The notes beneath the pieces were generated by a model. That model was given only the letters and a program-made list of their open reading frames with translations. It had not been told where the DNA came from and ran no database searches. Source: Gracilariopsis chorda (taxonomy: Eukaryota > Rhodophyta > Florideophyceae > Gracilariales > Gracilariaceae). From it: a DNA stretch of 56,160 bases. The position numbers and the translations under genes were made by a program. The DNA lies in assembly GCA_003194525.1 (NCBI GenBank), contig NBIV01000366.1:1-56160 (forward strand), given 5' to 3'. This document shows, piece after piece, positions 1 through 33,087 of this stretch (position 1 is its first letter; every line of letters starts with the position of its first letter).

Positions 1-219
1 GGTGCCAACCTCCTCTTGACTATCCGTGTCACACGTGGTCCACTCACGCCTTGGGCGGCACAACGGCGCATGCACAGGTGTGCACCCTGCGCATAGCGCG
101 GATCCGCTGAGGGCTGAGACACCCGCTAATAGCAGTAGTAATCATAAACACGCGAAAGCGGCAAAAACACCAAGTCCACAGGGCATCGCTGAGTCTTCCT
201 CCTTGAGGATTGCACTTCA
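1..219 (-). repeat. 3' LTR of element A (left copy, first ~12 bases outside window)
   Basis: Positions 1-219 repeat 10749-10966 almost exactly. On the minus strand this LTR begins TGAAGTGCAATCC, directly after the purine tract at 220-231. Because the plus-strand gene starts 35 bases beyond this LTR, the LTR must contain or lie just downstream of that gene's promoter, if the gene is transcribed. Confidence 0.93.
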
Positions 220-231
220 TATCCCCCTCCT
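220..231 (-). promoter_or_regulatory. Polypurine tract of element A
   Basis: Read on the minus strand this is AGGAGGGGGATA, ending directly at the LTR TG. It is the expected plus-strand primer site for reverse transcription and fixes the element's orientation as minus. The same purine tract is found next to the LTR at 48943-48955. Confidence 0.85.
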
Positions 232-254
232 GAGGTGCGAATACGACATCCACG

Positions 255-2068
255 ATGGCGACGGAAGCACCGGGCAAGGTCCTTAAATGTAAGTCCGGTT
301 CGCCGGTTCTCCATCCCACTCTGGGTAACGAGCACCTAGCTGCGAACAGCGAATCTGCGACCAACTCTTCCGAGGTTCTTCCAACAACACATACGCTTTC
401 GCGGCCTTCTTCTCCGATTACTCGGCTTCCTTCATCTACGATGAACAACAACAATGGCGACAACAACAGCAACGCCGGCAGCAACACACCGTTACAGTAC
501 TTCTCCGGATTTCATTCCGTGCCTCTACCGCAGAGTGGTCTCTCAACTCCGTCGCAACAAACAGGCGCAAATGCGAGTGCGGCTCCCACGGGAGGGTATG
601 TAATGGCAGCGTGGCCGTCGTACGACATGCTGGTCGGGCTGCAGCCTTCGCAACATGCGATGACTCTCCGGCTGGCGCCGTGGTTCCACCCGACTGCGGT
701 GTTCAATGATGCGCTTCTGGCGATGTACACCGATGGAAACGGGATGCTCCCGGGTGACGTTCCAGCAATTGTGACAACTTCGTGGGATTGGCGCAATCGC
801 GTAGCGATACCCGTGCACACGGTAATCCGACGGGGTCGGGAATCAGCAGCTTCCGCGCACGTGGCGTTGGTCTTACTCGCTCATCAACGGCTTCGCCGGG
901 CTCCCTTTGAGTATCCCATCCCAGATGGTATGGGCTCCGACATCGGATTGTATCGCACCCAAGGTGAAATGGGGTACCTCGACCGCCTCGCGGGTTTGGA
1001 ACCACTCTCGTGGAGAAGCATTCCCGCGGCGCGCCAAGACGCGGTGTGCTGGACACGACCGATCATTCGGGCTGAATTCCGCTATATGCGTCGCTTAGCG
1101 AGGGCCAACGTCTTGTCGATTATACGATTTGAGCGGCGAGCACGGTCCCGATTCGGGTATTTGATTCCGTATCAGAACGTAGAAGTCGAACGCATCCGCG
1201 TGGTCAACCGACGGGGTCGGTACGTTCCGATTCCACCGTGGTGGTCGCATCTCGAAGCGTGCCGAGGTTGCTACATCGAGTTGCCTCCCGTGATCACGTA
1301 TTACGGCTCATACCTCATCGAGGATCCTCAGTCCGGGCTCGGGTCCGTGGTGGTCACCGAATGGGCGGCACAGCGGCTTTCATCCTCTGGGAGGTTTATG
1401 ACCAGTACAGACTGTGGTCCATCCCGTTGCGGGTCCGTGCCGCCATCCGAGCTCTGGACTTACGAATCCCACTAGGTAGTGAGGCAAACGCTGACGAAGT
1501 AGTGGGGCTCCTCGATTACATCGACCAGGTTGACTGGGCTTCAGTTCCTCTAGAGCAGAGTGGGCGTACTGCCGGTAGCCGGATACAGGACCTGTCGCTA
1601 GGGCGTCGAACTCCGCTCGCGGGTGACTTCATCTACTTCAACCCTTTGGAGGGGCATGAGATCTCCGCGGAGGAAGCGAACGAGCTCCGGTTTGCACCGA
1701 GATATATCCCCGAGGGGCATCCGACCGCGTTTGTTGACGCCGATGAGTACTACAACGTCTACGACGGTGAGGATCCGATGTTCGACAACGAGCCCGACGA
1801 AGGTGCCGGTCACGCCGGGGCAGAGGGAGAACCATATGGTATGGATGCTACCGGAGTCGCCCCTGCGAGTCAGCCGTCCAATCCGTCGGTCATTCTTCCC
1901 ACTGGTGGGTCCTCTACGCCAGGTGAGGCGAACGTGGCCCCTGCGGGTCAGGCTGCCGTGATCTCTCAGTTCCTCCGCCAAGTGGGGCTGGGAGGTAACG
2001 AGGCCAGTGGCGATGTCACCGCGATGCGGGATGCTCTGATAGCCCGACTCCAGGGAAATAACCACTAA
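255..2068 (+). pseudogene. Antisense retrotransposon gene aORF-A, unknown function, one frameshift
   Basis: A plus-strand gene opposite in direction to gag-pol. It opens at ATG 255; a second in-frame ATG at 441 matches the start of the copy at 49106 and may be the true start. Frame 1 runs to 1475, then homology with the 49-kb copy continues in another frame to 2068. The switch lies near 1372, where about 4 nt are missing relative to the other copy. Conserved blocks include LRLAPWFHP, TTSWDWR, RPIIRAEFRY, FGYLIPYQNVE, CYIELPP, DPQSGL, VVTEWAA, YDQYRLW, IPLG, LAGDFIYF and SGDVT. Poly-Asn and acidic or Ser/Pro-rich stretches flank the core. No signal peptide, membrane segment or known domain is visible. 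Conservation of protein blocks with many silent differences argues for past selection. Function unknown. Confidence 0.82.
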
Positions 2069-2176: not shown

Positions 2177-2182
2177 AATAAA
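2177..2182 (+). terminator. Polyadenylation signal AATAAA of aORF-A
   Basis: AATAAA lies 109 nt after the aORF-A stop and before the pol stop on the other strand (2283). The copies at 47464 and 50871 also have AATAAA shortly after their aORF stops. The position is conserved, so this is likely the 3' processing signal of the antisense transcript. Confidence 0.6.
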
Positions 2183-2282: not shown

Positions 2283-2504
2283 TTATCCCACTTGAGCGTG
2301 TATCACCGATGCCGGGATTCCTGTTCGCGTTCTGCGATGATATGAAACCACTTTCGAACGTGGGAGGTGCTCTATCGGCTCATCCGAATCATATTCGGGC
2401 CCGAAACTGTACCAGTGTACGCGGTACTGGATGTAGCCATTTGGATGGTAAGAATGTTCCACAATGTGGTCAACAACAAACTCCTGTTTGTAGACTTCCC
2501 GGCC
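2283..2504 (-). CDS. C-terminal chromodomain of element A pol
   Basis: Continuing the pol frame past the TGA at 2505-2507 gives about 73 residues ending at TAA 2283-2285. They contain EFVVDHIVEH, then YRVHWYSFGPEYDSDEPIEHLP, which is split here as YRVHWY and DSDEPIEHLP. This is the fold pattern of a chromodomain: an opening beta strand, aromatic positions, and the W/D-x-EP-x-x-x-L helix start. The W usually found before EP is D here. Element B has the same block with DTWEPIEHLP and the same final AQVG-stop. Chromodomains at the pol C-terminus define chromoviruses and steer integration to modified histones in characterised members. The domain lies behind nonsense codons in this copy. Confidence 0.78.
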   Translation of the reverse strand, partial: GREVYKQEFVVDHIVEHSYHPNGYIQYRVHWYSFGPEYDSDEPIEHLPRSKVVSYHRRTRTGIPASVIHAQVG

Positions 2505-3497
2505 TCACCGTGTTCGCATTATCGCGTCCTGCACGGCAGGCTCTACCACCACTGGTGGGTGTTGGACCGTCTTCCCCAGAACAGGCATGGCTTGGTACTG
2601 CCTGTCCATGCCCATAGAAAGGTAATTAACCGGTTTACGGGTAGGTTCATCCGCTTCGCGGGCCTGGAGGTCCTCGGCACGGCCGGTTGCGTCGACTACT
2701 TGATGGTGCGTATCGGGACCCTTGCTGTGGGTTAAAGTATCCCGCTTCGCGGTTTCTTCACTCCTGGAGGGGGCTTCTACTGACGATACCCTTTGAGGGG
2801 CTTCTAACGCATCTGAAAGATGAGCATCTGGGTCGCGAACCACAGGTTTGTGTGTAGATATCCGTCTTGACCGGGGTGCTTCAGACGACGAAGTCGGTTG
2901 CCCCACGGTGCGTCTTACAGTACGCGTCGACTCGCCTCGGGCGGTAATTGGTGCCTTTGCCGTCCGTACGGTGTCGGGGTCACGTGCCGTTTGCAACGGA
3001 TGGTCGAGGGTTGTCTGCGCCGTGTTGCGTTCCGCCTCCTCACGTGAGGGCGGTTGCAACGGTGCTGCCGGTGTGTTGTCTCGCTTCGGCGACGAAGTAT
3101 TTCGGTCTTTGACGTGCTTTCCTTCCGGAGTGACCGGTGCGACTTCGGCGACACTGTCGGGATCAACCGAGACACTCGGAGTGAGTTCGCAAATGCGCGA
3201 TGGTCCTAAACAAGAATCCAGCTTGCTGGTCGTTTTCATTCCGTCCTGTACGGTGTGCTTGCCCGGCCTGGCCGGTGTGTTCTGCCGTGCAGTAGGAGTT
3301 ACCACGTCCGGTGTAGTCGGCTCAGAGGATCCCGCGAGGGCCTGCTCTGCATTATCCAGCGTAGCTGTTGTTGACGAACCGTGACCCACGGAATGCGGAT
3401 CAACGCTCGACGGCACAGCCGGTTCAGTATCGCGAACGCGAATAGTTTCCTGCAACGATTTCACTTTGGCGAGAGACTTCCCACTGTGTGGTGCATT
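2505..3497 (-). CDS. Low-complexity pol tail between integrase and chromodomain
   Basis: In the same frame as pol, between TAA 3498-3500 and TGA 2505-2507, about 330 codons are open with no ATG start. They encode a Pro/Thr/Ser/Arg/Asp-rich sequence without hydrophobic segments, predicted disordered by composition. Added to the last part of the preceding pol ORF, the integrase core and chromodomain are about 400 or more residues apart. The related element B has an equally long, similarly composed tail, so this is not chance read-through. The underlying DNA is full of short perfect hairpins, for example CCACCA-c-TGGTGG at 2546-2558. Confidence 0.7.
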   Translation of the reverse strand, partial: NAPHSGKSLAKVKSLQETIRVRDTEPAVPSSVDPHSVGHGSSTTATLDNAEQALAGSSEPTTPDVVTPTARQNTPARPGKHTVQDGMKTTSKLDSCLGPSRICELTPSVSVDPDSVAEVAPVTPEGKHVKDRNTSSPKRDNTPAAPLQPPSREEAERNTAQTTLDHPLQTARDPDTVRTAKAPITARGESTRTVRRTVGQPTSSSEAPRSRRISTHKPVVRDPDAHLSDALEAPQRVSSVEAPSRSEETAKRDTLTHSKGPDTHHQVVDATGRAEDLQAREADEPTRKPVNYLSMGMDRQYQAMPVLGKTVQHPPVVVEPAVQDAIMRTR

Positions 3498-6400
3498 TTA
3501 ACGACTAGAATCCCGGTGGGGAGTGCGATCTGGCGCAGATGCGGTTGAAATTCCTCGAGAGGGTTCAGCAGGAGCTGTAGCGCGCAAATGCGAAGATGGC
3601 ACGTCAGTAGACGGAATTCTCGGTCCACTATTGTCCTTTTCGATGTGTCCGGAGGTCCGTGCACCACGGTTGTCATGACGCGACGAAGCGGTTTCAGTCT
3701 CTCGACGAGAGTTAGGGTTCTCCTCCCCCTCCTTAGATGGAGCGGCATGGGGAGTGGTAGAAGCGCCCAAACTGCGGGGATAGACACCGTGCGGTGGCGT
3801 TAGAGAAGAAAGGCCATTCGGGCCTGCGTCCAATAAGGACGGTATATCTGAGAGTCCCCTTGAAGGGTGTGGCAACACAGAAGGCCTGTTAACCACAGAT
3901 GTGGGTTGTTCCACTGGGGTGTGTTGGTTCTCATCTTTGTAAGCAACCTCTACGGAAGGTGGCGGTGCCATAACAACGCGATCGCGGGAAATCCGCTCAT
4001 GAGCGTCGTTCATTTCCACCACTAAGGTGTCTTTATCCACTGATATGACCTTGTAGGGACCGTCCGCGACGGGTGAGATCTTATGCCGTTTCTCCTTATC
4101 AGGGTTCCAGTTCTCCTTACGGACGAAGACGTAGTCACCCTCCGTAATTGGCGGTGCTGTAACTCGTACACGAGAGTCAAAATCACACTTGTACGCGGCC
4201 TGTGCTCGTGCTATGGAGCTCCGGGCGACCGGGATTAACTTCATAAGCCACGCTTTCCATCGTTGGCGATAATCCTTCACGGAAGGGAAGTTTGCCAGCG
4301 TAGGCTGGGGTTCCAACGCTACGGCGGGCGGATGACGCGAAAGTACCAATTCAAATGGAGTCAAACCCGTTTTACGGTGTACCTGTGTGTTATACTCAAA
4401 CGTGAAGGCGTCAGTGTACAGGTCCCATGTTTTGGGGTGATCAGCAACGTAAGAACGGAGAGAGGCCAACAGCGTTCGGTTAAACTGCTCGACCTGCTTA
4501 TTACACTGGGGGTGGTAGGTCGTTGTGAACAGATTCTTGATATCGAGAATCCGACACACGTCCTCAAAGAATCGCGATGCGAATTGCTTTCCGTTATCGG
4601 ATAGAATGTTAACCGGTGGTCCGTAGACAAATACCCAATGGGTGACGAAGGCTTGCGCCACCGCGAAAGCGGATATCTTCCGTAAAGGTACGGTGCGAAC
4701 CAACTTGGAGAAACGATCCGTGATAACGAGTAAAAACTTATGTCCACGCTTTGTGGTGAGCAGCGGTCCCAAGAGGTCAATTGCGACAAACTCGAGAGGG
4801 GCCCGTGCTGGGAATAACTTCAACTTCGTTGAGTGCTTCCGGAGTTTGACCCGGTTTTTGGCACACTCCGTGCATGACCGCACAGTCGCGTAGCAGTCCA
4901 CAGCCATGGCTGGCCAATAGTAACTCCGTCGCAACGTGAAGTAAAGTTTCCGTCCACCGGCGTGTCCACCAAGTTTTGCATAGTGCGACAAGTGCAACAC
5001 TCTAGATTGTAGAGTATGCGGTACCACTACCTGTGGGGTTGTTTGAACCGTCCTGACGAGGCATTCAACATCATTCACCTCGAAAGGGAGTTGCGCACTG
5101 CCATTAAGTCGGGCGCGAATCTGAGTACAGAAGGGATCACCTTGTTGTTCTCTGACCATCTCCTCCGGGGGTATTGGCACGAAATTACCCGGTGGGGGTT
5201 TCTGAGCATCGTCCGAGACGAGTACTGCGTCCAGTTCATCATCCGATTCTGGTTCTTCATCCTTGTTATCGGGTTCACGGTCCGGGTTCTCCGGTTCTCG
5301 ACCGTCGACGACGAAGCAAGGAATGTCCTCGTCCCCAGCGGGTAGAGTTTCACCATCCGTGGGTAAACGCGACAGCGCGTCCGCCTGAGCGTTCTTTGTG
5401 CCCTTCTTGTAGATCACCTCGAAGTCGAATTCCGCAAGGCGGAGCATCCAACGCATTAAGCGGCCTGACGGTTCAGAGACTGTCATGGGCCATCGTAATG
5501 ACGAGTGATCCGTGTAAACGGTGAAGTGCACACCCATAAGATAGGGGCGGAGAGTGGAGAGTGCCCACACAACTGCAAGACACTCTTTCTCCGAGACGGA
5601 GTAATTCCACTCGTGAACATTCAGTGAGCGTGACCAGTACCCAATAGGGGTTCGTTTTCCTTCGGGAGTTGTCTGGAAGAGAGCGCAACCTACTTGGTAG
5701 TCACTAGCATCCGTGTCTACGGTAAACGGTAGTCCGGGTTTCGGTAATGATAAGATCGGTGCTGATGTTACAGCCTCCTTGAGGGAGTTAAACGCTTTCG
5801 TCTTGACGGATGTAAAGGGTTCCAATTTCGGTGGTTGGCCTTTCCGCAAGAGCGCGTTCAAGGGTGCTGAGATATCCGCACAATTCGGGATAAACCGTCG
5901 ATAGACGTTGACTAATCCTAGAAAGGAGCGTAGTTCCATTTGAGTGGCGGGTTCCTTCGCTTGACAGAGCGACTTAACTCGAGCTTCCTCGATCATCACA
6001 CGCCCAGGGCGGATTATGTGGCCCAGATACTTCACTTTATCTGTAAAAAACTCACATTTCCTCAACTTGAGATTAACTCCAGCCTCACGTAGCGTGGTCA
6101 TGATATCTCTCACGTGTGTGAGGTGTTCATCCAGATTATCTGAGAATACTATGATATCGTCCAGGTAGACGAGGCATGTACGCCATTTGAAGCGAGCCAG
6201 TAGTATGTCGATAGCACGCTGGAAAGTCGCGGGAGCATTGGTCAAACCAAAAGGCATCCGTTTGAAACGGTAGAGTCCGGAATGACAGACAAAAGCCGTC
6301 TTGTCGCGGTCCTGTTCCCTGACGGGCACCTGCCAGTATCCCCAATTGGCGTCTAGGGCCGTGAAAACGGTAGCATTTCCGAGTGAATCGATGCACTCAT

Positions 6401-6836
6401 CCATTCGTGGGATCGGGTACACATCCTTGATGGTTACGGCGTTCAGTCGACGGTAGTCAATGCAAAAGCGCCAGGATCCATCCGGTTTCGGAGCCAGTAC
6501 CACTGGGGATGCCCACGGCGACTGAGCCGGTTCTATTACTCCAGCTCGGAGCATCTTTTCCACTTGGAATTCTTCCTCTTCTCGAGCTTTAGGGCCTGCC
6601 CTATAGGGGTGCTGAGTGATCGGCCTGGTATCAGGTAGGAAGTCAATCCGGTGCTCCGTTGTAGTAATCTCCCCTATGGAGCCATCCCACATCGTGGTGA
6701 AATTCCGTAGCATCTCACGGAGACGTTCACGGTGCGATTCCGGCACATGACCGAGGTCAAGTTCCTCGAGTTCTTTCACGGGATCCATCCGGTCGTAACT
6801 CTTTGGAACCGACTTAGCATCCGAGCATTTCGGCAT
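3498..6836 (-). CDS. pol: Element A pol: reverse transcriptase, RNase H, integrase
   Basis: 1112 codons. Order: RT about residues 60-290 with the catalytic YLDD box (LVYLDDIIVFS); RNase H about 320-450 (DTDASDYQVG, then YTDHSSL); integrase about 570-850 with an HHCC zinc module (HLSHYAKLGGH ... SCTECAKN), catalytic D in FVAIDLLGP, D in LSDNGKQF and E in KQVEQFNR; a GPY/F-like module (VADGPYKVISV) about 940. These activities copy the RNA and insert the cDNA. The frame is the same as protease upstream (separated by TAG 6852-6854) and the tail downstream (separated by TAA 3498-3500). Catalytic residues all look intact. The first ATG lies at the listed start, but protein is probably made as a PR-pol fusion, since element B is open across that point. 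Confidence 0.95.
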   Translation of the reverse strand: MPKCSDAKSVPKSYDRMDPVKELEELDLGHVPESHRERLREMLRNFTTMWDGSIGEITTTEHRIDFLPDTRPITQHPYRAGPKAREEEEFQVEKMLRAGVIEPAQSPWASPVVLAPKPDGSWRFCIDYRRLNAVTIKDVYPIPRMDECIDSLGNATVFTALDANWGYWQVPVREQDRDKTAFVCHSGLYRFKRMPFGLTNAPATFQRAIDILLARFKWRTCLVYLDDIIVFSDNLDEHLTHVRDIMTTLREAGVNLKLRKCEFFTDKVKYLGHIIRPGRVMIEEARVKSLCQAKEPATQMELRSFLGLVNVYRRFIPNCADISAPLNALLRKGQPPKLEPFTSVKTKAFNSLKEAVTSAPILSLPKPGLPFTVDTDASDYQVGCALFQTTPEGKRTPIGYWSRSLNVHEWNYSVSEKECLAVVWALSTLRPYLMGVHFTVYTDHSSLRWPMTVSEPSGRLMRWMLRLAEFDFEVIYKKGTKNAQADALSRLPTDGETLPAGDEDIPCFVVDGREPENPDREPDNKDEEPESDDELDAVLVSDDAQKPPPGNFVPIPPEEMVREQQGDPFCTQIRARLNGSAQLPFEVNDVECLVRTVQTTPQVVVPHTLQSRVLHLSHYAKLGGHAGGRKLYFTLRRSYYWPAMAVDCYATVRSCTECAKNRVKLRKHSTKLKLFPARAPLEFVAIDLLGPLLTTKRGHKFLLVITDRFSKLVRTVPLRKISAFAVAQAFVTHWVFVYGPPVNILSDNGKQFASRFFEDVCRILDIKNLFTTTYHPQCNKQVEQFNRTLLASLRSYVADHPKTWDLYTDAFTFEYNTQVHRKTGLTPFELVLSRHPPAVALEPQPTLANFPSVKDYRQRWKAWLMKLIPVARSSIARAQAAYKCDFDSRVRVTAPPITEGDYVFVRKENWNPDKEKRHKISPVADGPYKVISVDKDTLVVEMNDAHERISRDRVVMAPPPSVEVAYKDENQHTPVEQPTSVVNRPSVLPHPSRGLSDIPSLLDAGPNGLSSLTPPHGVYPRSLGASTTPHAAPSKEGEENPNSRRETETASSRHDNRGARTSGHIEKDNSGPRIPSTDVPSSHLRATAPAEPSRGISTASAPDRTPHRDSSR

Positions 6837-6851
6837 TTGGACGGCAGTGTC

Positions 6852-7871
6852 CTACCCCTCCTTAGAGTGAACGAGACCGAGGACATCGGCGGCGGTCATT
6901 CTCGTGGGAACCATCGCGGTGGGGTGGGGCATTACCGAACCAATGACTTGGTTTTTCACCAGTGACTGGGGCATAGAGCCTAGATTGGCGACCAGCACGT
7001 TAAATGGTTTATCGGGCTCAATTTGAGCTACTCTATTCGCCACGGCGAGTTGATACCTATCATATAAGGATGAAAGGGGTTGAATTACTCGTAAACCGTG
7101 TTGACGGGAAGTGACTCGTACCCAAACTTGGGATTCCGGTGGAAGTTGGACAGACGCAGCAACGCGGAGCTTTGTAGAGTCCCGGGAAGCGGGTGGGGGT
7201 TCCTGCGCAGCAGGTAATGGAACGTGCTTCTTCGAGGCAAGTCGTAGAGGACGACGTACGATCGAAACGGAGGAGCCGTCTTCCATTTCCACACGTCTTA
7301 GACGGGGCCTGATGGCATCGAAGAATCTGTCACAGAATTCGCATCCCAAGATCAAAGGGGGGGCAAGTTTCCGACAAACAATAAAGTTGAGTTTCACAAG
7401 AAAGGAGCCAAGGCGCACGACCAGGTCGATTGTCCCAACCGTTGATAACAGGTTATCATTTGCATCCGCGACATCCGGTATCACGCCATAGCGGATCTGA
7501 GACTGCAACGACGGTGGCAGGAGCGACTCAACGATGAAGTTCGGGCCTGCACCTGTGTCCAAAACAATGAGAACTCGCACCATAAACTGGGTGGAAAGGC
7601 CAAAGTCAGCATATACCTTGTAGTTTCCCTTGGCCATTACCAAAACTCTGTCCGGGAACCGGTTTTTTCGAACACGTTTCCACGGTCGATGCAGAACACT
7701 AAAGTGTTCAGAGTTCACGTCTGAGACGGCCTGTTTCCTAGTAAGGATTTTGACCGGGGAGCGAGGCAGTGACGCCTCGGGCGCCTTCGACCTCAACTCT
7801 GAGGGCGCCTCTCCCGTAGGGGAGACTCCCGAAATCAGTTTTCCTGAGCCCGTTCCGCCTGAGGCGGGGTC
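6852..7871 (-). CDS. PR: Element A aspartic protease region
   Basis: The frame is open from 7871 (after a TGA at 7872-7874) to TAG 6852-6854, with no ATG at its beginning, so it is expected as a gag-PR frameshift product. The retropepsin active-site DTGA lies in VLIVLDTGAGPNFI; the second conserved block is LILGCEFCDRF. The protease matures Gag and Pol. It overlaps the end of gag (7835) by 37 nt in the -1 frame. The final residues (DVLGLVHSKEG-stop) align with an uninterrupted region of element B, so the TAG is most simply a nonsense mutation, though stop read-through cannot be excluded. Confidence 0.85.
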   Translation of the reverse strand, partial: DPASGGTGSGKLISGVSPTGEAPSELRSKAPEASLPRSPVKILTRKQAVSDVNSEHFSVLHRPWKRVRKNRFPDRVLVMAKGNYKVYADFGLSTQFMVRVLIVLDTGAGPNFIVESLLPPSLQSQIRYGVIPDVADANDNLLSTVGTIDLVVRLGSFLVKLNFIVCRKLAPPLILGCEFCDRFFDAIRPRLRRVEMEDGSSVSIVRRPLRLASKKHVPLPAAQEPPPASRDSTKLRVAASVQLPPESQVWVRVTSRQHGLRVIQPLSSLYDRYQLAVANRVAQIEPDKPFNVLVANLGSMPQSLVKNQVIGSVMPHPTAMVPTRMTAADVLGLVHSKEG

Positions 7872-9949
7872 TCAGTATCCTGAACCACTAGCAGTGGAGC
7901 GCTAGTGGGGGTGTCTTGTCGAACAAGACGGGGGTTAGTGACCTGCTCAGCAGAGGTAAGCAACGCGTGTCGCGGGTTCGTATCCGGGATATTCCGGGGG
8001 AAGTCCGTCTTCGCTCGTAAGTACGATGCAATCGGAACGGTCTGCTTCTCCGCTGGAGTAAGGGCTTCATAGTTACTGATCACTCGGGTTACTTCTCTCA
8101 AAGTGAGGATGCAGTCCGGTGAAATGTGACCGTGTTCGTAACATATGTAGCATATGACTCCAGAGCGTGGGGGCGGCTGACTGGAACGAGCATCCGTGTG
8201 TCTCACCGCTGGGCGGGTATCCTTCGATCCGGGACGACTCTGCCGGAAGGCACCATTCGAATAGGGGATGCGAGGTCCATGAACACGGGGTCTGTCAACA
8301 TACAGCAGGGAATTCTCCTGAGCTGTGTCATAGGACGCATCCGTCGTGGACGGCAGTTCCGTTGTCGGAATAGACTGAGCACCGGCCTGAGCAAGGTACA
8401 CGTTATCGTAGTCCCTTGAAGGGCGTCCAATTGCTGCTAGCGAGAAAGGTGGTGAACTGGCTTCCACCATCAACGCCTTGGCGGGACGAGACTTCGATGC
8501 GGGGATACGAGCTCGAAGTGCATCACCTTCCACTTGCGCGTGTTGAATCAACTCCAGGTAGGTGGTGTTACGACGACCCTCCCGATATCGGGCCACCAGC
8601 GTACGGATTGCCGGATCCAATCCATCGATGTACATGGTGCAGCGCTCTCCAGAGAAGTAAATATTGCCACACCTGTGGAAAGCCTTATTAAGGCGTACCG
8701 AGAATTCGGTTTCCGTCTCTCCAGCTTTCTGGCGGGTATCGCGTAGAGCGAGAATAGCCGCCTGAATAGCGTTGTTCGTCGCATAGGATCGCAAGAGGTA
8801 CTGAACCGCTGCCGGCCAGCACGTTACACCCCCTTCGGAGGCTCGGGAAGAACCTCTTACAGAGTTGTATTGATCCTCGGCGAGTCCACGTAGAAAATGC
8901 GGTAGGGCAATAAACGCCTGTCCTTCGTTCATACCAAGTATGTCCGCTTCGGAAACGAACCTTCCGAGGAAGTCCAACACCAATATGGGATCCTCTCCAG
9001 AAAAGGACTGGTTACGAACGGAAAGCTGCATACGCTTTATGCAGTCCTTCACCTTACCCGTACCACGGGGTGTACGATCCAATGAGGAGTCCTCAAGCCG
9101 ATAATATCGGTACGATACCAACTTCTTGTAGAGGGGATTAGTACATTTGAGTTCCCTCAATCCTAAGTGTTTCCTCCCCTTCCTCCGGCGGCGAATCACA
9201 CCTTGGGTGGAAGAAGACCGTTTAGAATGGGACGAGCGTCGGCGACGATCATCGTCCGACGAATAATCCGACGACACCGAACCATCTGAATGGTGAGAAT
9301 CCTGTGAAGACAGGGAGGAATGCGACGAGTCGGGATCGTGCTTGGGTTGCTTCTTACGAGTGCGGCGGGTAGAATCTTTCTTCTCGCGCTTCGCTTTTTG
9401 CGAGACAGCAGCGGCCTCACCCGGGACGTTGTCATCCATCAAGATAGTTTGCTCCAACGTCCTCATACGGGCACTGACACGATCAAATCGGGTTTCCACA
9501 TTCTCAACATAGTTGGCAGGGCCACCAAAACATTCCAACACAGTGTTGACATCCGCCCTTAAAAGGCGAATGTCCTCAGCCAAATCCTTCATAAAAGAGG
9601 TATCAAACCTGACACGCAGGACTTCAAACTCCTCCACGAGGGTATTGTGTGCTTCACGCACCTCATCAAGCTGCGCTTGGACACTAGGGGGGGCGTCGGT
9701 ATTGAGTTCTCCCCTCCGGGGTGCAGTTAAATCGGCAGAAGCCCGGTCGACACCAGAGTTGGGAGCGTCCTTCAACGTCTTAGGCGGGGGTTTCTGTGCT
9801 CTCGACGAGTCTTGGCCCTTCGACTTGCCTTTCAAAGTGGCACGTCGAGGGCGGCCAGCGGGGACCTTCGAGATCTCTGCCTGTTCCACTTCACTGATAG
9901 AACGACTCCGCGTGACAACGGGTTCGGCGGAGGATGGTCGCCGAGACAT
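7835..9949 (-). CDS. gag: Element A Gag with CCHC zinc knuckle
   Basis: 704 residues from ATG 9949 (MSRRPSSAEP); the frame stays open a little further upstream but only with non-ATG codons. The N-terminal ~300 residues are charged and Ser/Arg-rich with a probable helical stretch (LDEVREAHNTLVEEFEVL). A capsid-like retrotransposon gag domain follows around residues 325-490 (FLGRFVSEADILG ... FSVRLNKAFHRCG). A perfect C-x2-C-x4-H-x4-C knuckle, CYICYEHGHISPDC, lies near 600. Gag forms the particle and packages RNA. The frame is fully open, the best preserved reading frame of the element. The C-terminal coding DNA carries strong hairpins (7811-7824, 7855-7867, 7885-7908). Confidence 0.92.
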   Translation of the reverse strand: MSRRPSSAEPVVTRSRSISEVEQAEISKVPAGRPRRATLKGKSKGQDSSRAQKPPPKTLKDAPNSGVDRASADLTAPRRGELNTDAPPSVQAQLDEVREAHNTLVEEFEVLRVRFDTSFMKDLAEDIRLLRADVNTVLECFGGPANYVENVETRFDRVSARMRTLEQTILMDDNVPGEAAAVSQKAKREKKDSTRRTRKKQPKHDPDSSHSSLSSQDSHHSDGSVSSDYSSDDDRRRRSSHSKRSSSTQGVIRRRRKGRKHLGLRELKCTNPLYKKLVSYRYYRLEDSSLDRTPRGTGKVKDCIKRMQLSVRNQSFSGEDPILVLDFLGRFVSEADILGMNEGQAFIALPHFLRGLAEDQYNSVRGSSRASEGGVTCWPAAVQYLLRSYATNNAIQAAILALRDTRQKAGETETEFSVRLNKAFHRCGNIYFSGERCTMYIDGLDPAIRTLVARYREGRRNTTYLELIQHAQVEGDALRARIPASKSRPAKALMVEASSPPFSLAAIGRPSRDYDNVYLAQAGAQSIPTTELPSTTDASYDTAQENSLLYVDRPRVHGPRIPYSNGAFRQSRPGSKDTRPAVRHTDARSSQPPPRSGVICYICYEHGHISPDCILTLREVTRVISNYEALTPAEKQTVPIASYLRAKTDFPRNIPDTNPRHALLTSAEQVTNPRLVRQDTPTSAPLLVVQDTETPPQAERAQEN

Positions 9950-10736
9950 GTGTAGACCAAAAACTCCCAAGAAGTGGTAAGAAACCAGAAGTTTGGACAG
10001 TGAATCTCCGAGGAGAGGTAATACAAAACCTAACCGTTTCCGATTCTAGGTCGGGAGACCACTTTGTAGTGCAATACCCGCAAGCGGGATAACACACGAT
10101 GACGTTCGGAATCTTCCCCTCTGGAGGGTAACACAGCGAACGGAGCCTCTCCGGATGAGCACGACGAAGTCGGGTTGTAAAGCCGAGGCTCACCCTCACG
10201 CCAAGCGAGGAGAGTTGAAACGGTAGGATTAGGATCACCACGAATGGGAAAACAGCCCTTCCAAGGAGTACGAGTCCACGTAAGTGCGGGAAGACGTCAC
10301 GGGATACCGGCACGAGAGACACGCGTCAGCTGTGACGAGCAACCACACAAAGGGGTAGGAACCACGAGAGTGGGGTAAGGGAAATACGGGGGATGCCCGA
10401 TTGGGGGCAACGGGGGTGTGGGCCAACGGGACCACGAAAGAAGGTACAAAGGAACCCTATACAGGGGCGAGAACATGGCGGTGGTGAATTAAGTGACAAG
10501 TGCCCAAGGCGGTGATACTCCTAGTGACGCAGGGTGGATAGGTCTACCGTTAGTAACGCAGCTTTACCTCCGAGGAGTGTAGAAGACTCGCGAAAGCGGA
10601 AAAGACTTAGAGCCAAGAACCCTGGTTGGGGACGTTTACTCAGTGTCAGAGCGAGGTCGCCGAGCCACTATATAGTGTAGTAATCTCCCTACTGTAGCGT
10701 AGATAAATAATAAATAATAAATATAAGTTAACTAAA
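9950..10736 (-). promoter_or_regulatory. Structured 5' leader of element A
   Basis: About 790 nt between the 5' LTR and gag with no convincing ORF. It holds many short inverted repeats: CCCGC-aa-GCGGG at 10077-10088, CCCTC-tg-GAGGG at 10117-10128, and others near 10480 (CCCTATACAGGG type) and 10665 (CACTATATAGTG type). The leader at 48149-48763 is recognisably homologous. It is the expected place for packaging and translation-control signals. Next to the LTR the minus strand reads TTTAGTTAAC followed by AT-rich repeats, not the TGG of a usual tRNA primer site. Confidence 0.65.
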
Positions 10737-10966
10737 TGTCCACACCGTGGTGCCAACCTCCTCTTGACTATCCGTGTCACACGTGGTCCACTCACGCCTT
10801 GGGCGGCACACGGCGCATGCACAGGTGTGCACCTGGCGCACAGCGCGGATCCGCTGAGGGCTGAGACACCCGCTAATAGCGGTAGTAATCATAAACACGC
10901 GAAAGCGGCAAAAACACCAAGTCCACAGGGCATCGCTGAGTCTTCCTCCTTGAGGATTGCACTTCA
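10737..10966 (-). repeat. 5' LTR of element A (complete, 230 bp)
   Basis: Starts TG (TGTCCACACC) and ends CA (GCACTTCA) on the plus strand, hence TG...CA on both strands. Matches 1-219. The leader precedes it on the plus strand and unrelated sequence (GTAACGGCTT) follows at 10967. The target duplication cannot be checked because the left flank lies outside the window. Confidence 0.93.
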
Positions 10967-23926: not shown

Positions 23927-25471
23927 TCAGGTATCAGAAGTTAGAGCTTTCTCTTGTCTCCGAGGTGTATCAGTTGCGGTAGGACCAACGTCAGGGGTGC
24001 GAGTAAGAAAAGCCGCAATACGATCAGCTTCTCTATATCCCGATTCAATGGCACCATGCACGGTGGAGTAAAAATGGGGATGAGTACCCTCACCAGCAAA
24101 ACACAGCACAGGTTTCTCCAACGAAGGCAAAGGGTCTGCAAGCCGATCAACAGATTCTAGCGAACATCCAAGGCGGGGGTACGAATAACTACCCAAAACA
24201 AAAGGATTGCAACACCAGTTTGAACGTATTACACTGGTGACGGATACTTTCTGATCGCATACGAGACTGAGAAACGAGGATACTTGTTCCAAAGCCTGCT
24301 TCTCTGAGAGCTGTGACAGCTCAAGTGCCGGGTCGCCGTTAAGCCAGAAGGACACGAGCCGTTTCTCAGCGCTGTAGAGAATGGCAAACGCACCCTTGCA
24401 CCAGGCTGCGCACGATAGCGTCGCAGGGGGAGGCGCTGGGAGCCAAATGATGGGTACAGCTGCGTCGGATACAAAGTCGAGAAGATGAGTTTCCAGTAAG
24501 ACGAAAACCTTTTCCACAACTCCTTGACCCCTTTGCTCCAAGTGCTTCAACTTGAATTGCGGCAACTGCGGGCGGAAGAGCTGTTGTTTCACCGCTTGTT
24601 TGGTGACGTTTAGACTGGGCGTCCACAAAACCGCACGCGCTTTACGGAGGGAACCGTCGGAAAAGTGAAGATGGGGACCTTGTTCGTGCTGCCAGTGTAC
24701 AGAGGTTACGGACTTATTGTAGAGGATTTGAGCGGGTTGCAAGGAGGAGAGTAGCTTATCTACTACGACGGTCATGCCAGTACGTTGGGGTCGAACGTTG
24801 TCACCGGGAAGCGTGATATACTGACTACTACGGTGAGTGGACATGTCTCTGGTGGAGTTACTGCATCCATTCCAACAACACTCCAATTTATCAAGAGTTT
24901 GGAACACACACCTCTCGAAGTCAGGCAGCGCGTCGTAATTGACAGACCGCTCCAGTGTGTCTCGCATGGATCGGTCGTTGTCACCGGTTTTAAGAGGGTG
25001 AGAGTCAACGTCAGACAAAGCCTCTATCGCACGGTCATATGCTCTTGCGACGGACAAAGAAAGTCGCGGATGTATTCGACTTGTTCGGACATGAGAGTTG
25101 AAGTCGACAACGATAGCCGACGTGGAGAACAACAACGCGCGATCTCCCTCATTCCAACGATCACTTTCCTCCTCCTTCCGCGGGGCGTCACGGCGCAACG
25201 CGTTCTCAAAGACGAGTTCATAAGCGGCATTCCCGTGAGTGCCGTGCCACCAGGTGGCGCCGAGGTCAATTACGAATTCGTGACCACAGTGCTGAAGTTG
25301 ACGGGAGAAGACTCGTCCACCGGGTCGACTCTGTGCCTCGAAAAGCGTGGCGTGGATGCCGTGGCGGAGACGGAGACGGCTCGCGGCGGAGAGGCCGGCC
25401 AGTCCGGCGCCGACTATGGCTACGGAGTGGCGGCCGTCCTCGGGGAGCGAAGACGGACCGGGATCACACAT
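23927..25471 (-). CDS. Flavin-containing amine oxidase, polyamine-oxidase-like
   Basis: 514 residues from ATG 25471, a single open exon. The N-terminal FAD-binding Rossmann motif is VAIVGAGLAGLSAASRL with the following acidic residue (FEAQSRPGGRV). The GATWWHG block of polyamine/spermine oxidases follows near residue 70. The C-terminal FAD block is FAGEGTHPHFYSTVHGAIES. Length and block order match spermine or acetyl-polyamine oxidases, which oxidise polyamines to an aldehyde plus hydrogen peroxide; the exact substrate cannot be told. No clear peroxisomal C-terminal signal (ends TSDT) and no signal peptide. The gene looks intact and is the best preserved host gene in the window. Confidence 0.9.
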   Translation of the reverse strand: MCDPGPSSLPEDGRHSVAIVGAGLAGLSAASRLRLRHGIHATLFEAQSRPGGRVFSRQLQHCGHEFVIDLGATWWHGTHGNAAYELVFENALRRDAPRKEEESDRWNEGDRALLFSTSAIVVDFNSHVRTSRIHPRLSLSVARAYDRAIEALSDVDSHPLKTGDNDRSMRDTLERSVNYDALPDFERCVFQTLDKLECCWNGCSNSTRDMSTHRSSQYITLPGDNVRPQRTGMTVVVDKLLSSLQPAQILYNKSVTSVHWQHEQGPHLHFSDGSLRKARAVLWTPSLNVTKQAVKQQLFRPQLPQFKLKHLEQRGQGVVEKVFVLLETHLLDFVSDAAVPIIWLPAPPPATLSCAAWCKGAFAILYSAEKRLVSFWLNGDPALELSQLSEKQALEQVSSFLSLVCDQKVSVTSVIRSNWCCNPFVLGSYSYPRLGCSLESVDRLADPLPSLEKPVLCFAGEGTHPHFYSTVHGAIESGYREADRIAAFLTRTPDVGPTATDTPRRQEKALTSDT

Positions 25472-27829
25472 TGGGACGAGCTGGGGATAGCTGTCGCAGG
25501 ATACGGAGGGTTAAGAGTGAAACAGTAAATGGTTACTCGTGGGATACCCGGGAACAAAGACAAGACCGTGCGGAGTTCTGGTTACACGACGGTGCCGCTT
25601 ACGATTGGATACGCGGCTCCCAAGTGTCGCTGCCATGAAGCGCCACGTCTTTTTACAAGACATTGTGTCCCGGCAAGCGTCCAGTTGGACCTGCTTACAA
25701 CCCGGTAAGGTTGATCTAGTTAGCACTCTACACGTAGCTCTTGTTTTCTCTCCTTTTCTTCGTCGCTATCCACTGACGACTCCATTCTCACCCTTACTCT
25801 TCGCCGACGGCTCTTGAGTGGATCCGTCGCAGCACGTTGAGCCACTCGAATCAGATAGGGAATAGCCCTTCGTGAAGACCTCTTTGCGGAATACATGTGC
25901 AACCGAGCTTGTTGGCGCTCTTTGTGTTGTATCAACCGCGGATGGAAGCTCCTGGATATACGCCCCATGTTGTACCTTACGAGATAAGTCAAACACAGAA
26001 AAGGTGAAACAACTGAAATCAGAAAGCCAGCGAACAAGTATGCATCGTATCACAGATTCGTAGCTCTATTAAATGGTTGTCTATGTATAATTCATTGGGA
26101 GTTGCGGCCGCTAAAGAAACGAACTGCCATGGGCAAGAGGACGCCACTGCATAAAACATAACAAAACATGTAAGCCTAAACGGTTGCTAACTTAGAATTG
26201 AAATCCGTTGAGTCTCATGGAACACGTCCATCAATACTCCGAACTTCCCTATAGTAGTAAGGACGAACCCTGAAGACCTTCATACACGAATATTTGGCAC
26301 CCTTCCAGTTTGCCTTCCACGCCTTATCTTCAAAGCCATTTCCCAAACTCATGTATCAGAAATGCATCCCAATGCGATTGCACACCTCCACCAGCCCATT
26401 CATGAGCTTCCATGTGTACTTGCTCATCTTGGTGAACTCGCCGTTAAACTACCTCAGGCTTTCGCATACCCAATTATCACCGGGCGACAATGCACTACCT
26501 CCAAGCGAGTAGGCCCGTGTATTCAATCTTGGCATTAAGGGCCAAAAATTAGGAATCCTCACTACCCTCGGAGTTGGCAGACAACGAGCAAAATAGAGTC
26601 TTCTGGCTTTCTTTGCCCCTCTGTTCAGCAAAGCCTCGTTCCAGCCCGTCGTCTACGGTATTTAAGCCACAGGCCACCTCAGCTCAGACGAGCATGCCTC
26701 CCCCGCTTTCCGTTATCATCGTCTATCATCCCTAACGAACAATTGCGAGCTTTCTCTGGCCTGTTGTTCTTATTCTTTCTGTTGTCGAACAATATCATTT
26801 GTGAACGTAATATCTGAACGGAGTTTGTGCCTGGCATCAAAATCGAGCCCCTCTCAAGCAAACTCCAGAACAACTACCGTTTTCGTGGCATTCTCGGGAG
26901 CGTGGCCATTAAGAGTGCCGCCATATCACGTCGCCGCCACCTGTCAAGTCACGTCTTCGAGCCATCAACGTCTTTCCACCTCCTTAACTAGATCAACGAA
27001 CACTTCTCGCGAGAGGAAGTGATTTGTTTGCGAAAGTGCAACCCCTATATTCTTCTGTTCAGAAGCCGTTTGTAGTTCAAAACGTTATGGATCTGCTACA
27101 CAAACTCCTCATGCTGTAAAGGAAGCGCAGGCAGCAAAGAAAACGAAGGAGGAAGCGAAACAAACGCATCTTAGTGATACTTCACAGCTGGTTCCGGGAA
27201 ACTCGCTCGTATCGCCGACGCAAAAGGAGGATGCATAGACGTAACCGCGAATTTCTGAGATGGTTTTTTGGGCCTTAAGCCCGTTGGCCACTTCCGTTTG
27301 CAAGTTACTACGGTATCGGCAGCACATTTGGCGAGTGTTTTGTACTATTGAGTGTATTTGTATGAATGTATTTATTGTGTTCGTTTCTTGTAAAACAACT
27401 TCTTGAGAAGCAGTTTGTATGTCATAGGATGGCGTCTACAGAATCATGAATATAACTTATGGAGACGGACTGTTGTAGATAAGCACGACGGTTCGTATGC
27501 ACATCAAGACGGCTCACACGATCCGAAATGGCAATATAGGTAGGTTAGCTCCTTCGGTATTCATAGTTTTACAGTAATTGCCGTTAGGATCAAGCATCAG
27601 GAAATCGTCGGTTCTGAGAAATGGGTCGAACCTGATATTCAATTTGAGTGCAACGCATAAATGCCAAAAATGTAAATACCCAAATTTGATAGCAGTGTTT
27701 CTGCCACTGAAAAGCCGCACCTTTTTCCACACGAGTATGAGGCCAGCAAACCTTGTCGAGGCCAGTACGACATCAGGCAAAATTATGCCTCCTCTTCTGC
27801 TTTTCAACAGCTCGCAGTACTTCCGCGCG
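25472..27829. other. Intergenic region
   Basis: Contains the presumed promoter of the amine oxidase. ORFs here are short and unsupported. No Harbinger terminal repeat could be identified on this left side of the 27.8-kb transposase. Confidence 0.4.
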
Positions 27830-29005
27830 ATGGAATCCTTGTCTACTATGTTACTGGTTCTTCTCCTCGACCGTCGGCGTCGAAGGCTTGCAATTACGTT
27901 TCGCGATCGACTTTCAATTCGGGGGCTCCACCGTCGCTCACGACGAATATCTCGTGTTGCCCTTCTCGATCCATCATCTTCTCCATTCGTTCAACTTTTC
28001 AACTCCGCATGTGACCAATCTCTGATAACATTGACCGGTTTCGATCATCTCATCTTTGCGTATCTACTTGAACGATTTGCTCCACTGTAAGAACGATACA
28101 CACCCTACTCAAAGGACGGCTGCATTCGCATTCTACGAGTGAGGAACCGCAGACGGGGTCGGCCGCGATTGCTTACCGCACGGAACGCACTGTGACTTAT
28201 CCTGTCCTAGCATTGCACGCGTGGTTCTACTATGACTTTGTGCATTTTTTTTGGTATCACGGCCTCTTTGTGTTCGTTGTTTCTACGTTTCTCAAGGCCA
28301 ATTCTTCTTCGTGTTTTCATCTATGACTGTCAAGCACAAGTTCGGATTCCAACGGAACAGGAAGCTCTTCAGGTCATGCTAGCGTTTTCTGCAAAGTACT
28401 TCACGCTAAAAGATGTTTATGCAGTTGCCGATGGACTTAAACTCTGCCTAGAACAATCGGGACACTGCTTTATTCAAAACCGTTTTTATAATGGTTGGAA
28501 ACACGATCATTACGTCACAACCGTGTTGGTGTTTGCTCCCAGTGGAGTCATCATCGCATACGCCTTGAATGCACCCGGCAGTATGCATGATTCTCTCGTA
28601 TCTGAATGGGGAGGCGTGTATGAGAAACTCGAGGCCGCCTTCGATGCTTTTGGTGGCCGCTGTGTGGTGGATTCTGCATTCGCACGGGGGCAATACCCGT
28701 TCCTCATCAAATCGGCGCAGGACGAAACGAGCGCCAATTCGTCGGCCGAAATCATATTGCTGCGCCAAGCAACTTGTGCGCGGCAGGCGGCAGAGTGGGG
28801 CATGAGAGCGTTCCAAGGGTCATTCCCACGCATAAAGGACCGGTTTTTATACGAAGAAAACGGAGAGCGAAGACTCGTTTTACTATGTGCTGTATACTTG
28901 TTCAACGTGAGAGCGAGACTTGTTGGCATTAATCAACTGTTGTCGTCGTACATGCCGCAGATGAGTGTTGAAGCCAACTATCTCATTAGCCACATGAGGC
29001 TCTGA
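27830..29005 (+). pseudogene. PIF/Harbinger transposase (Harbinger-3), three in-frame stops
   Basis: 392 codons in one frame from ATG 27830 to TGA 29003-29005, interrupted by TAA 28088-28090, TGA 28193-28195 and TAG 28208-28210, with no frameshift. The N-terminal region has TGFDHLIFAYLLERFAPL and GRPRLLTARNAL. The DDE nuclease core shows VYAVADGLKLCLE (Asp 1), NRFYNGWKHDHYV, LNAPGSMHDSLVSE (Asp 2), VVDSAFARGQYPFLIKS and RQAAEWGMRAFQGSFPR (Glu). This matches Harbinger transposases common in fungi and oomycetes. Its stop lies 3 bp from that of the convergent DUF6818-like gene, the usual partner, so the pair is one transposon. The stops make it inactive. Confidence 0.85.
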
Positions 29006-29008
29006 CTT

Positions 29009-30304
29009 TTATCTTGACGACGCAGGATTGCTATTATCATTCACACATTTCGTCATCATGACTAGCATCATCTCCATAAATTGTTTGTGCCTTTCAGAGT
29101 CTTCGCGTATCCGTTCTTCCTCTTTCCGCCTCTCCTCCTCCCGTCGTAAGCGATCCTCCTTCCTCTCCTCCTCTCTCAGGCGTGCTTCTTCTTCGCGACG
29201 ATGCTGGTCCTGCATCATCATCATTTTGATGACGGACGTCAAGTCTTCATCATCCCTGACCATTCGGGGGGGTCGTGTGTTTACAATTGGCCGCAGCGTT
29301 GGGGTAGTGCCGCGTGACGGAGCAGCGGACAAACTGTCCCTTCCGGTAGATTGAGCATCCTGCTCGTCGCCGGATGCGAGCGACGCAGAATTCTCTTCAA
29401 CACCTGGCAGGAATTGATCAACAACCTCACGTGGCTGCTCACCGTCACCAATTTCCGCCAGCTCCGTGAGCCGATACCTCAAATTTTTGGCTCTTCTGAC
29501 GTCTTCGGGCATGCGGGGATCCCCAGTCGGCATCTTCTTGCGATACAAGGTCGCGAATTTTTTCTTGAGACTGTCTGACGTTCGTTTCTTTTCCGGGTGA
29601 CGCTTTCCATGTTCCTGCGCAAGCAAGTCCCACTCATCCCTGCACAGCGGCTGCATTTTTTCGATAAGGTCAAGCATCGTGTCCGTCTCGACAGACGAAA
29701 AGCCACTGCCGCGCGTTGGCGCTTTTCCGATTTTGCTGTTCTTTTTCTTTGCGATTCGACCACTAGCAGGGTCTGGGGGGCGAGTCAGTCGCAACAACGA
29801 GTGTCCACGGACATACGAACCCCCATATCCGGGGCTGCCACGCGTACCAGCGGCAGTGAGATCGATGGCTGGCTTTTCCATGTTCGATTCAGAGGCCGGA
29901 GGCCAGGCCACATCGTCTCTTGCGCTGTTGCATGCGGCGGCGTTCGTCATTCGGTCGGGTGGAGTAGCAGAAGGCATGGGAGGAGTAATGTGGTGGCGCG
30001 GATGAGCGGGTGCTGGCAGCCGATACCCTGATCTATTCGCAGTCGGGGTTTTCGGAGCTGAGAGACCATCCACGGGAAGGCTGAAGCTTTCCCTACAGAA
30101 GATAGGCGGGGTCTCCGGGGAAACAGAAGCGGAGCTGTCAGGAAAGGCAAAATCTGAGCGCGCTTGACACGGTGATGTCGGTTCCTGCCTTTTGCTGGGT
30201 GTATCTGAGCATCGGTGCGTGGCTCGTTGGCGATCGAGCATCGGGTGCTCTGTGTCTTCGGTCGCGTTGCAGATGGAGTTCGTTCCATCTAATACTTCGG
30301 GCAT
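29009..30304 (-). CDS. DUF6818-like (Myb/SANT-type) Harbinger partner protein
   Basis: 431 residues from ATG 30304, intact. Residues 1-190 are low complexity. A trihelix-like domain follows around 200-285 (GFSSVETDTMLDLIEKMQPL ... W ... SLKKKFATLYRKKMPTGDP ... AKNLRYRL); the PTGDP motif is typical of DUF6818. A long charged coiled coil (RREEEARLREEERKEDRLRR, about 365-410) and a Met-rich end follow. In PIF/Harbinger elements such a protein binds DNA and brings the transposase to the ends. Here it stays open although the transposase has three stops, so it may have outlived the element or been kept for another role. Confidence 0.8.
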   Translation of the reverse strand: MPEVLDGTNSICNATEDTEHPMLDRQRATHRCSDTPSKRQEPTSPCQARSDFAFPDSSASVSPETPPIFCRESFSLPVDGLSAPKTPTANRSGYRLPAPAHPRHHITPPMPSATPPDRMTNAAACNSARDDVAWPPASESNMEKPAIDLTAAGTRGSPGYGGSYVRGHSLLRLTRPPDPASGRIAKKKNSKIGKAPTRGSGFSSVETDTMLDLIEKMQPLCRDEWDLLAQEHGKRHPEKKRTSDSLKKKFATLYRKKMPTGDPRMPEDVRRAKNLRYRLTELAEIGDGEQPREVVDQFLPGVEENSASLASGDEQDAQSTGRDSLSAAPSRGTTPTLRPIVNTRPPRMVRDDEDLTSVIKMMMMQDQHRREEEARLREEERKEDRLRREEERRKEEERIREDSERHKQFMEMMLVMMTKCVNDNSNPASSR

Positions 30305-31546
30305 TGTGTGTGGGAACTGGGAACGTCCGACTGCTAACGAGTTTGCGGCAGGATGAGAGCGGTCAGTGATGACGCTGTGGCCGAAGAGCGTCCCGCCATT
30401 GCAGTTGAGGCCGCCGCGCGCTCATGTTGTGCCTGTATCCGTTGCGCGCGTTTGGCGGCAGAAAAAGGCCCCATCCTCTCGAATTTGGCGCAAAATTTTG
30501 TTTTTGGGAGGCCCCTTTTTCCGTCTGCGACGGGGTGAGGACGTCAGAGGGTTTCGGGTGTTTGGGTGTACCCAAAAGGGTATGATAACCTGTTTTTGGC
30601 TACACCCAAAATGGTAAAAGGGTTTTCAGGTTCGACCCAATGTCCGACGCCGACGTCATGCAGTGCGGAGTCACGACGATCGGCAGCGCTAACAAGCAGG
30701 CTATCCGTAACGTCCGGAATGATCTAGTAACGGTGTGACGTAACACTTTCGGTACTGAGGTGTTGAAATCACCAAGGAGATTTGATATACGTGGGTAGAA
30801 ACAGTGATTTCCAGCTCCAATGACAATATTTTGTTTTCTAATGCTAACTACAGGTATGAATCTCGAAACGTGTAAAACAATTGTTTCGAGAATATGCTGC
30901 AAACATATCTAGAAAACAACTGTTCAAAGGTAGGGAGACTTTTTTCCATTTTTGAATACCGATGATTGATCAACCCAAAAACAAAATTGAGAAAAAACAC
31001 TGGTCTCGTTATTGTGTGCCTTGTCGACGTTTTAAAGCGTAAGATATTTATTGCCTGGAGAAACAAGCTAGTCTAGAAGCTCATCCCTAATTCAGCATGC
31101 AAACGAGCCCATCTTGTTGCAATCAGTACTCTCCACAAAAGATGTTCGTCGCAAACTACGTTTTTGACTTTCTTGATTCGTCGTTTCATATTCTTACATG
31201 AATACAACCTCTTTCCTACTCCAAAAAGCTATCAACTTCCTTTGCAGCTTTGAAACCTGAATAGCTTGATACCTAAGATACATATATTGTTCAACAGACG
31301 ACAGTCCGTAGCTATACAAGTTGCATTTGAGACATTGAGCTTGAGCTGAGTTGTTGGGGACTCTTACCTACACGCAGCATGCTTTTTCAGTAATGATAGT
31401 GATTGGCCCTATATCTGCCTTTTCTTCTATAGCTTGTAAAGTGCTTCTTCTTTGTCTGTGAAACATGAATAAACGATGGCATGTTCAATGATCTAATATA
31501 CGACTTTCAAATTATTAAAACCGGAACAAAAGTAAGAAGAGCTTTC
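30305..31546. other. Intergenic region
   Basis: AT-richer, without a convincing gene. At about 30564-30620 a GGGTGTA/TACCC-type motif occurs in both orientations (TTGGGTGTACCCAA, then TACACCCAAAA). It may be part of the right end of Harbinger-3, but no matching left end was found. Confidence 0.35.
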
Positions 31547-33003: not shown

Positions 33004-33087
33004 GCCCTTTTGTACATATTTACATGCACAATTTGACACGAGAAACTGACTGGGGGGGAAGATGTCCATTGGACTTTTTCTAGAAAG

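Follow-up and report, generated by a model that had tools for sequence, protein, structure and literature searches.

Evidence for a resident antisense protein-coding gene beside the 3' LTR of Gypsy elements in the red alga Gracilariopsis chorda

Three Gypsy elements and their antisense genes

The window, that is, the whole stretch of 56,160 nucleotides that was analysed, is contig C366 of the 91.3 Mb Gracilariopsis chorda assembly. Element A, the only one of its three Gypsy elements with both LTRs inside the window, lies on the minus strand. Its 5' LTR (10064-10966, minus strand) measures about 903 bp, a length over which the LTRs of other copies match in full, and its 3' LTR (1-219, minus strand, inner edge at 219), with 97.7% identity to 10749-10966, is cut by the contig start. 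Also on the minus strand are gag (7835-10045, a 736-codon frame with a weak zinc-knuckle match, PF00098, E 0.06, under the curated cut-off), a frame without Pfam match (7871-6852) which we take, from its motif, to be the protease, and the pol region with reverse transcriptase (RT), RNase H and integrase (3498-6851; PF00078, PF17917, PF17921 and PF00665). The Pfam search with the pol-tail frame at 2505-3497 gave no match; a remnant of the chromodomain that forms the pol C-terminus was recognized by tblastn at 2286-2531 (minus strand), with 54% identity to residues 505-586 of P0019, itself a protein with a Pfam Chromo match (E 3.9e-10). The antisense gene of element A (aORF A, 255-2068, plus strand) opens with an ATG at a distance of 35 nt from the LTR edge, a polypurine-tract-like stretch read from the sequence (220-236, minus strand) lying between the LTR and the gene, and its stop codon is followed after 108 nt by AATAAA (2177-2182, plus strand), a candidate poly(A) signal.

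The second antisense gene, aORF B (45366-47420, plus strand), is a remote homologue by profile comparison, and converges with a chromodomain remnant of the element B pol (47721-47816, minus strand) that tblastn matched to P0019 over 32 residues (59% identity, E 1e-5), the Pfam search with the frame holding this remnant being without match. Element C runs past the window end. Its 3' LTR (48117-48942, minus strand, edge at 48942) was delimited by the part that aligns with the intact C-type relative L065 (91% identity), and it is followed by aORF C (48998-50838, plus strand), by a pol tail (50978-52489, minus strand) with 82% identity to P0019 and a chromodomain at approximately 51047-51172, and by pol in broken frames (52598-55425, minus strand), recovered as tblastn pieces and with 72% DNA identity to 3946-6796. 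Since the pol of B abuts the LTR of C, element C was probably inserted into element B (45366-49000). In A and C the 3' end of the aORF is about 200 bp from pol and the 5' end adjoins the LTR.

Plus-strand ORFs set against minus-strand gag-pol, as proposed in the initial annotation, were found at all three sites. That the ORF sits after pol and before the 3' LTR holds for A, with its two LTRs; the elements carrying B and C are incomplete in the window. The breaks were also where they had been put: a frameshift near 1372 splits aORF A into two overlapping frames (234-1475 and 1133-2068), stops at 46434 and 46857 interrupt aORF B, and aORF C switches frame near 49935 and is further broken by an early stop close to the N-terminus and another frame change close to the C-terminus. 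The relations between the copies had to be redrawn: the close pair is A and C (255-2068 and 49106-50838) rather than A and B, and the remote copy is B (45366-47420) rather than C. The start assigned to aORF C, 49106, was also mistaken, because the real start at about 48998 and the early stop after it make 49106 an internal Met.

Other features of the window were also noted. A decayed Helitron is probably represented by the minus-strand region 35810-39880, where PF05970 identifies a PIF1-like helicase and PF14214 gives a Helitron-like N-terminal match just under the cut-off. At 28211-30421 a DDE_Tnp_4 transposase-like ORF adjoins a DUF6818 ORF of the other strand; together they probably make up the gene pair of a Harbinger-like DNA transposon. 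Related repeats, which are 75-85% alike and have lengths of about 130-720 bp, are scattered over 32130-42926, and a long amine-oxidase-like ORF at 23927-25510 (PF01593, E 6e-51) is probably a host gene.

Intact copies and linkage to pol

An intact ancestral protein gene, which the initial annotation had supposed behind its three broken copies, is borne out by uninterrupted copies elsewhere in the genome, and many of these were found. When frames of at least 560 codons were called for, 13 of the 30 fetched A loci gave an unbroken, ATG-started ORF of 571-609 codons. The C family has at least 134 matches, the window copy included, and 81 of the 134 listed are stop-free with frames of 590 codons or more; A-type aORFs make up 79 of the 108 matches listed, fragments counted. 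In six representatives, intact aORFs have no stop in their own frame as opposed to 8-28 in each of the other frames. The borders of the gene are equally regular: the distance from LTR edge to ATG is 35 nt in 28 of the 30 A loci and 57 nt in L065, and a motif made of the LTR edge and a pyrimidine tract, which reads as polypurine in the sense direction, is common to 28 of the 30 A loci and the C family. AATAAA is found at +108 past the stop in 10 of the 13 intact A loci (it is missing in L017) and within about 110 nt of the stop in seven of nine representatives taken across families, the two without it after the aORF stop being L063 and L064.

The association with pol was evaluated as linkage, from 67 A-type RTs (out of 114 RT entries) and the 79 A-type aORF entries. 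An opposite-strand aORF is found downstream of at least 45 of these RTs, at 3.75-4.13 kb in 41 of the 45; the remaining 22 are unpaired, which does not equal absence of the aORF as the listings hold the best-scored candidates. Among the other 47 RTs, which are C-type with at least one P0007-like, at least 18 are paired with an aORF and 29 are unpaired, and no same-strand aORF was seen for the 18 among the matches listed. For the B-like families 72 of the 114 listed aORF entries were used (those dropped being mostly fragments or rich in stops) together with 80 pol tails out of 209 matches, pairing being accepted within 5 kb. Convergent orientation was found in 48 of the 49 B-like aORFs with a nearby pol tail and same-strand orientation in one, and the other 23 of the 72 have no pol tail among those entered.

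Chromodomain-like pol tails adjoin the aORF in L065, L061, L062, L064 and L034, and remnants lie beside aORFs A and B of the window; the fetched piece of L063 gave no such match. The PF00385 match has E 3.9e-10 in the C-type pol tail and E 1.1e-9 in the B774-type tail. The red-algal gene agrees with an aORF-3R, the accessory antisense ORF of LTR retrotransposons, in its place from pol to the 3' LTR on the strand opposite to gag-pol, and in being present in many copies and conserved as a protein. Judged by the pol C-terminal chromodomain alone, the host elements would count as chromoviruses; Gypsy elements with a chromodomain are described outside chromoviruses too (PMC12477816). As a separate observation, the L065 pol tail ahead of the chromodomain (L065:3244-5001) is unusually long, with more than 400 residues, and looks low-complexity.

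Selection on the aORF frame

Selection within the A family was determined from 29 of the 30 A loci, L001 being left out as it is 100% protein-identical to the window copy. For variants present in at least three copies, 17 non-synonymous and 22 synonymous changes were counted in the aORF frame, so that N/S is 0.33 of the neutral expectation (P 5e-4). The ratio rises to 0.68 (P 0.036), a mild constraint, for variants in at least two copies and to 0.81, near neutral, for singletons. The same calculation for variants in at least three copies gave 0.63-1.82 in the remaining five frames, the minus frames having values of 0.63 (P 0.11), 1.40 and 1.82; one minus frame shows a mild deficit of singletons (0.82, P 0.02). 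Across families, differences between A and C representatives at codon positions 1, 2 and 3 are 0.347, 0.292 and 0.635, respectively (565 codons), and three A copies compared with L065 gave pN values of 0.32-0.34 and pS values of 0.71-0.73, with synonymous sites near saturation. Pairwise dN/dS among A copies has a mean of 0.76 (range 0.45-1.48, 78 pairs), a value that would follow if the majority of differences had accumulated since insertion. With 39 key variants the within-family test is good though not large, and the A-C comparison is the stronger one.

Purifying selection acts on the aORF in its own reading frame. The protein-level selection put forward in the initial annotation is thus confirmed by an N/S well under neutral, and conservation caused by the opposite strand, which it had named among the findings that would undo its proposal, was not borne out by the minus-frame ratios just given. 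A minus-strand gene as the cause of conservation was rejected, all minus frames having at least eight stops in the six representatives. A chance ORF was likewise rejected on the basis of the intact copies, the stop counts and the selection on the frame. The aORF is almost certainly a resident protein-coding gene of the Gypsy elements.

A superfamily of red-algal proteins

A and C family representatives have 54% amino-acid identity over 565 codons, compared with 82-83% for the RTs of the A and C types, so that the aORF protein appears, from these sequences, to change faster than RT. The B copy is much more distant. BLASTP of B against the A-like database protein P0009, a single comparison, was empty (best E 4.6), and the relation emerged from hhalign with profiles of six sequences each, the A-like and B-like profiles matching with a probability of 98.2% (E 5.6e-14) over 203 columns. 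The B-like set contains open frames of 708-847 codons in L034, L061, L062 and L063. On sequence grounds, A, C, P0007-like proteins and several B-like families are grouped in one diverse superfamily. P0007 (Gracilariopsis chorda BWQ96_03215) is 100% identical in residues 1-491 to a locus in the same assembly, and at least 10 distinct protein-database relatives occur among the matches listed, in searches that covered about 7,990 candidates each, those named being from Gracilariopsis chorda and Agarophyton chilense.

The statement that no domain is recognizable also stands, as Pfam, NCBIfam and PDB give nothing credible for the aORF proteins: nothing was over the cut-off in Pfam or NCBIfam, the best PDB hit had E 1.8, and no DNA- or RNA-binding domain was recognized in the three collections. 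Neither a bZIP match (E up to 1) nor a capsid or zinc-knuckle match was obtained in the Pfam scans of the aORF proteins. PF04195 (TRP28) was absent, at E up to 1, from hmmscan of the six window aORF pieces and of P0007, P0009, P0013, P0014, P0015 and P0017. Phage sequences gave no aORF match, and no aORF relative was found in viral contigs with either alignment used. An origin as a duplicate of Gag was rejected, the hhalign probabilities against the elements' own Gag being 0.5 and 0.1 per cent.

The two structure models of aORF proteins are poor overall (mean pLDDT 43 and 53), with parts predicted as folded between low-confidence ends, and fold searches with these two models returned no match. 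The tails are RG-rich in B774 and B847, carry a basic motif in B738 and P0009, and are acidic in the A- and C-type proteins. A mean hydropathy of 1.6 over 19 residues is the usual cut-off for membrane segments; the maximum in nine aORF proteins ranges from 0.95 to 1.71, with P0015 at 1.71, P0018 at 1.67 and the other seven at 0.95-1.58.

Copies without the aORF

Five places where an A-type RT is not paired with an aORF were examined: one is a contig end, three have one common deletion and one has a different deletion. The common deletion spans the aORF from about residue 53 to beyond the stop, and its junction was found at eight places on six contigs with 93-100% identity, which indicates that a derivative without the aORF has spread. 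Amplification of this A derivative in turn implies that the aORF is either trans-acting or dispensable; these are the simplest readings of the aORF-less copies, and the data do not separate the two.

Two arrays were noted along the way. The common deletion junction is present in each of three A-type elements that stand in tandem at intervals of about 8.8 kb in G000:C3:93500-119087. In G000:C73:229471-243800, which holds two A-type elements, the spacing between RT and the aORF N-terminus suggests a further partial deletion of the aORF, different from the common one.

Proposed role of the aORF protein and its alternatives

The reading that best accounts for the whole, and to which we give somewhat under an even chance, is that of a resident coding gene whose product is a trans-acting nuclear regulator. 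With the ATG so near the LTR, the promoter has to be placed within the 3' LTR or close to it. An antisense promoter of this LTR would drive transcription of the aORF, and the protein would work in trans on the element family that encodes it, as an accessory regulator in the nucleus, controlling transcription or host silencing through a link to DNA or RNA, in a working mode loosely like that of antisense retroviral regulators. A nuclear, nucleic-acid-linked trans regulator is favoured by the convergence with pol, the 3' end signal of its own, the fast change and the RG-rich or basic tails. Against certainty are the acidic tails of A and C, the lack of a recognized binding domain and the stretches of borderline hydrophobicity that two of nine proteins contain, and the regulator mechanism taken by itself is tentative, slightly below the reading as a whole. 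A motif for the antisense promoter common to the A and C LTRs was not found. A palindromic TATA, ACTATATAGT with its close variants, lies some 300 nt into the LTR and was considered as a two-way promoter. Of the 27 A loci whose LTR is long enough to judge, 22 have it (the LTR edge was found in 28 of the 30 A loci, one of these being the truncated window copy), but it is not in the C LTR, and the idea was therefore set aside. In a more daring form of the regulator hypothesis, which we consider rather doubtful, family-specific anti-silencing or transactivating proteins would recognize their own LTRs and serve aORF-deleted copies in trans, so that the mode known from HBZ and VANC would have arisen independently in an old, fast-evolving protein family that is encoded antisense in a retrotransposon and related to nothing known.

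Particle genes normally sit on the sense RNA, which counts against a structural role for an antisense product. Nevertheless, the protein might join Gag particles or the pre-integration complex as a partner, for instance of the chromodomain integrase, and possibly be supplied in trans, an unlikely alternative with which the partly folded prediction between low-confidence ends and the co-inheritance with chromodomain pol agree, and in which trans-supply would permit the aORF-deleted copies; the protein has, however, no likeness to its own Gag by hhalign and neither capsid nor zinc-knuckle in the Pfam scans. A transfer function is improbable. An Env- or movement-like protein, which could serve cell-to-cell transfer, e.g. 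through red-algal pit connections, would suit the slot between pol and the 3' LTR, the evolution that is fast relative to RT and the hydropathy of P0015 and P0018, slightly above 1.6, but not the lower values of the other seven proteins, nor the orientation, the aORF being antisense where plant Env-like ORFs are described as sense-oriented (PMC7264820).

The remaining explanations make the protein secondary or irrelevant. A sense genomic RNA that extends as far as the 3' LTR would cover the whole antisense transcript, and RNAs of such a kind are discussed for other elements (PMC7264820), so that the antisense RNA could be the active agent through dsRNA or interference with the sense genome; this option has a low probability, similar to that of transfer, because selection acts on the codons of one frame and an RNA agent alone would not hold approximately 600 codons open in so many of the listed C matches. 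That the gene has no function, being an old frame that chance has left open or a separate mobile gene nested in the element, would be in line with the amplified aORF-less copies and the near-neutral singletons; it is very unlikely in view of the purifying selection on shared variants, the third-position excess, the fixed place next to the LTR and the presence of the aORF in several diverged families.

Comparison with known systems

ORFs that run antisense in the interval from pol to the 3' LTR have already been described as a kind, in the account given in PMC7264820. In plant Retand elements, 97% of the clusters are reported with antisense ORFs bearing TRP28 (PMC11963269), and the red-algal aORF resembles the Retand TRP28 ORF (PF04195, Transposase_28; PMC11963269) in being long and antisense, and in occupying the slot from pol to the 3' LTR across diverged families. 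The position is also that of maize Grande gene23 and of the rice RIRE2 ORF, as outlined in PMC7264820. Unlike Retand, which is presented as a non-chromovirus (PMC11963269), the red-algal host element has a chromodomain, and, again unlike Retand, the red-algal aORFs that were scanned are without TRP28. Thus, the parallel to plant Tat-type elements drawn in the initial annotation fails, since the neighbouring pol ends in a chromodomain and the elements are not Tat-type. In addition, and unlike the plant antisense ORFs, the red-algal aORF begins right beside the LTR, and in A and C some 200 bp separate its end from pol. Outside plants, brtn of Boty from Botrytis cinerea (PMC7264820, PMC8365987) is comparable, by description alone, as an antisense extra gene of a Gypsy element; it differs in its host lineage, fungal rather than red-algal. 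No antisense ORF in red-algal elements is evident from titles and abstract openings, a scope that leaves most of the subscription literature outside.

More distant systems offer analogies of mode. HBZ of HTLV-1 is an antisense retroviral regulator, and by analogy with it the promoter of the aORF would need to sit in or near the 3' LTR; unlike HBZ, the aORFs have no bZIP Pfam match, and an independent origin is likely. VANC proteins are anti-silencing proteins of the plant VANDAL transposons, and may be likened to the aORF protein, by analogy and description only, as family-specific, fast-evolving, trans-acting accessory proteins of a mobile element, with the difference that VANDAL is a DNA transposon and the red-algal elements are Gypsy elements. 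An antisense promoter in the 3' LTR is mentioned for antisense retroviral regulators in PMC7264820.

Antisense accessory ORFs are therefore already known, and what is new is the red-algal protein superfamily and its chromodomain setting. Such ORFs in LTR elements have been described in flowering plants and a fungus, with their function unsettled, and a red-algal superfamily that shows no detectable relation to TRP28 and has both intact and lost copies suggests that the same slot was filled independently. The system lets one ask why an element should need an LTR-adjacent gene that is read from the other strand, and whether the encoded protein works in trans.
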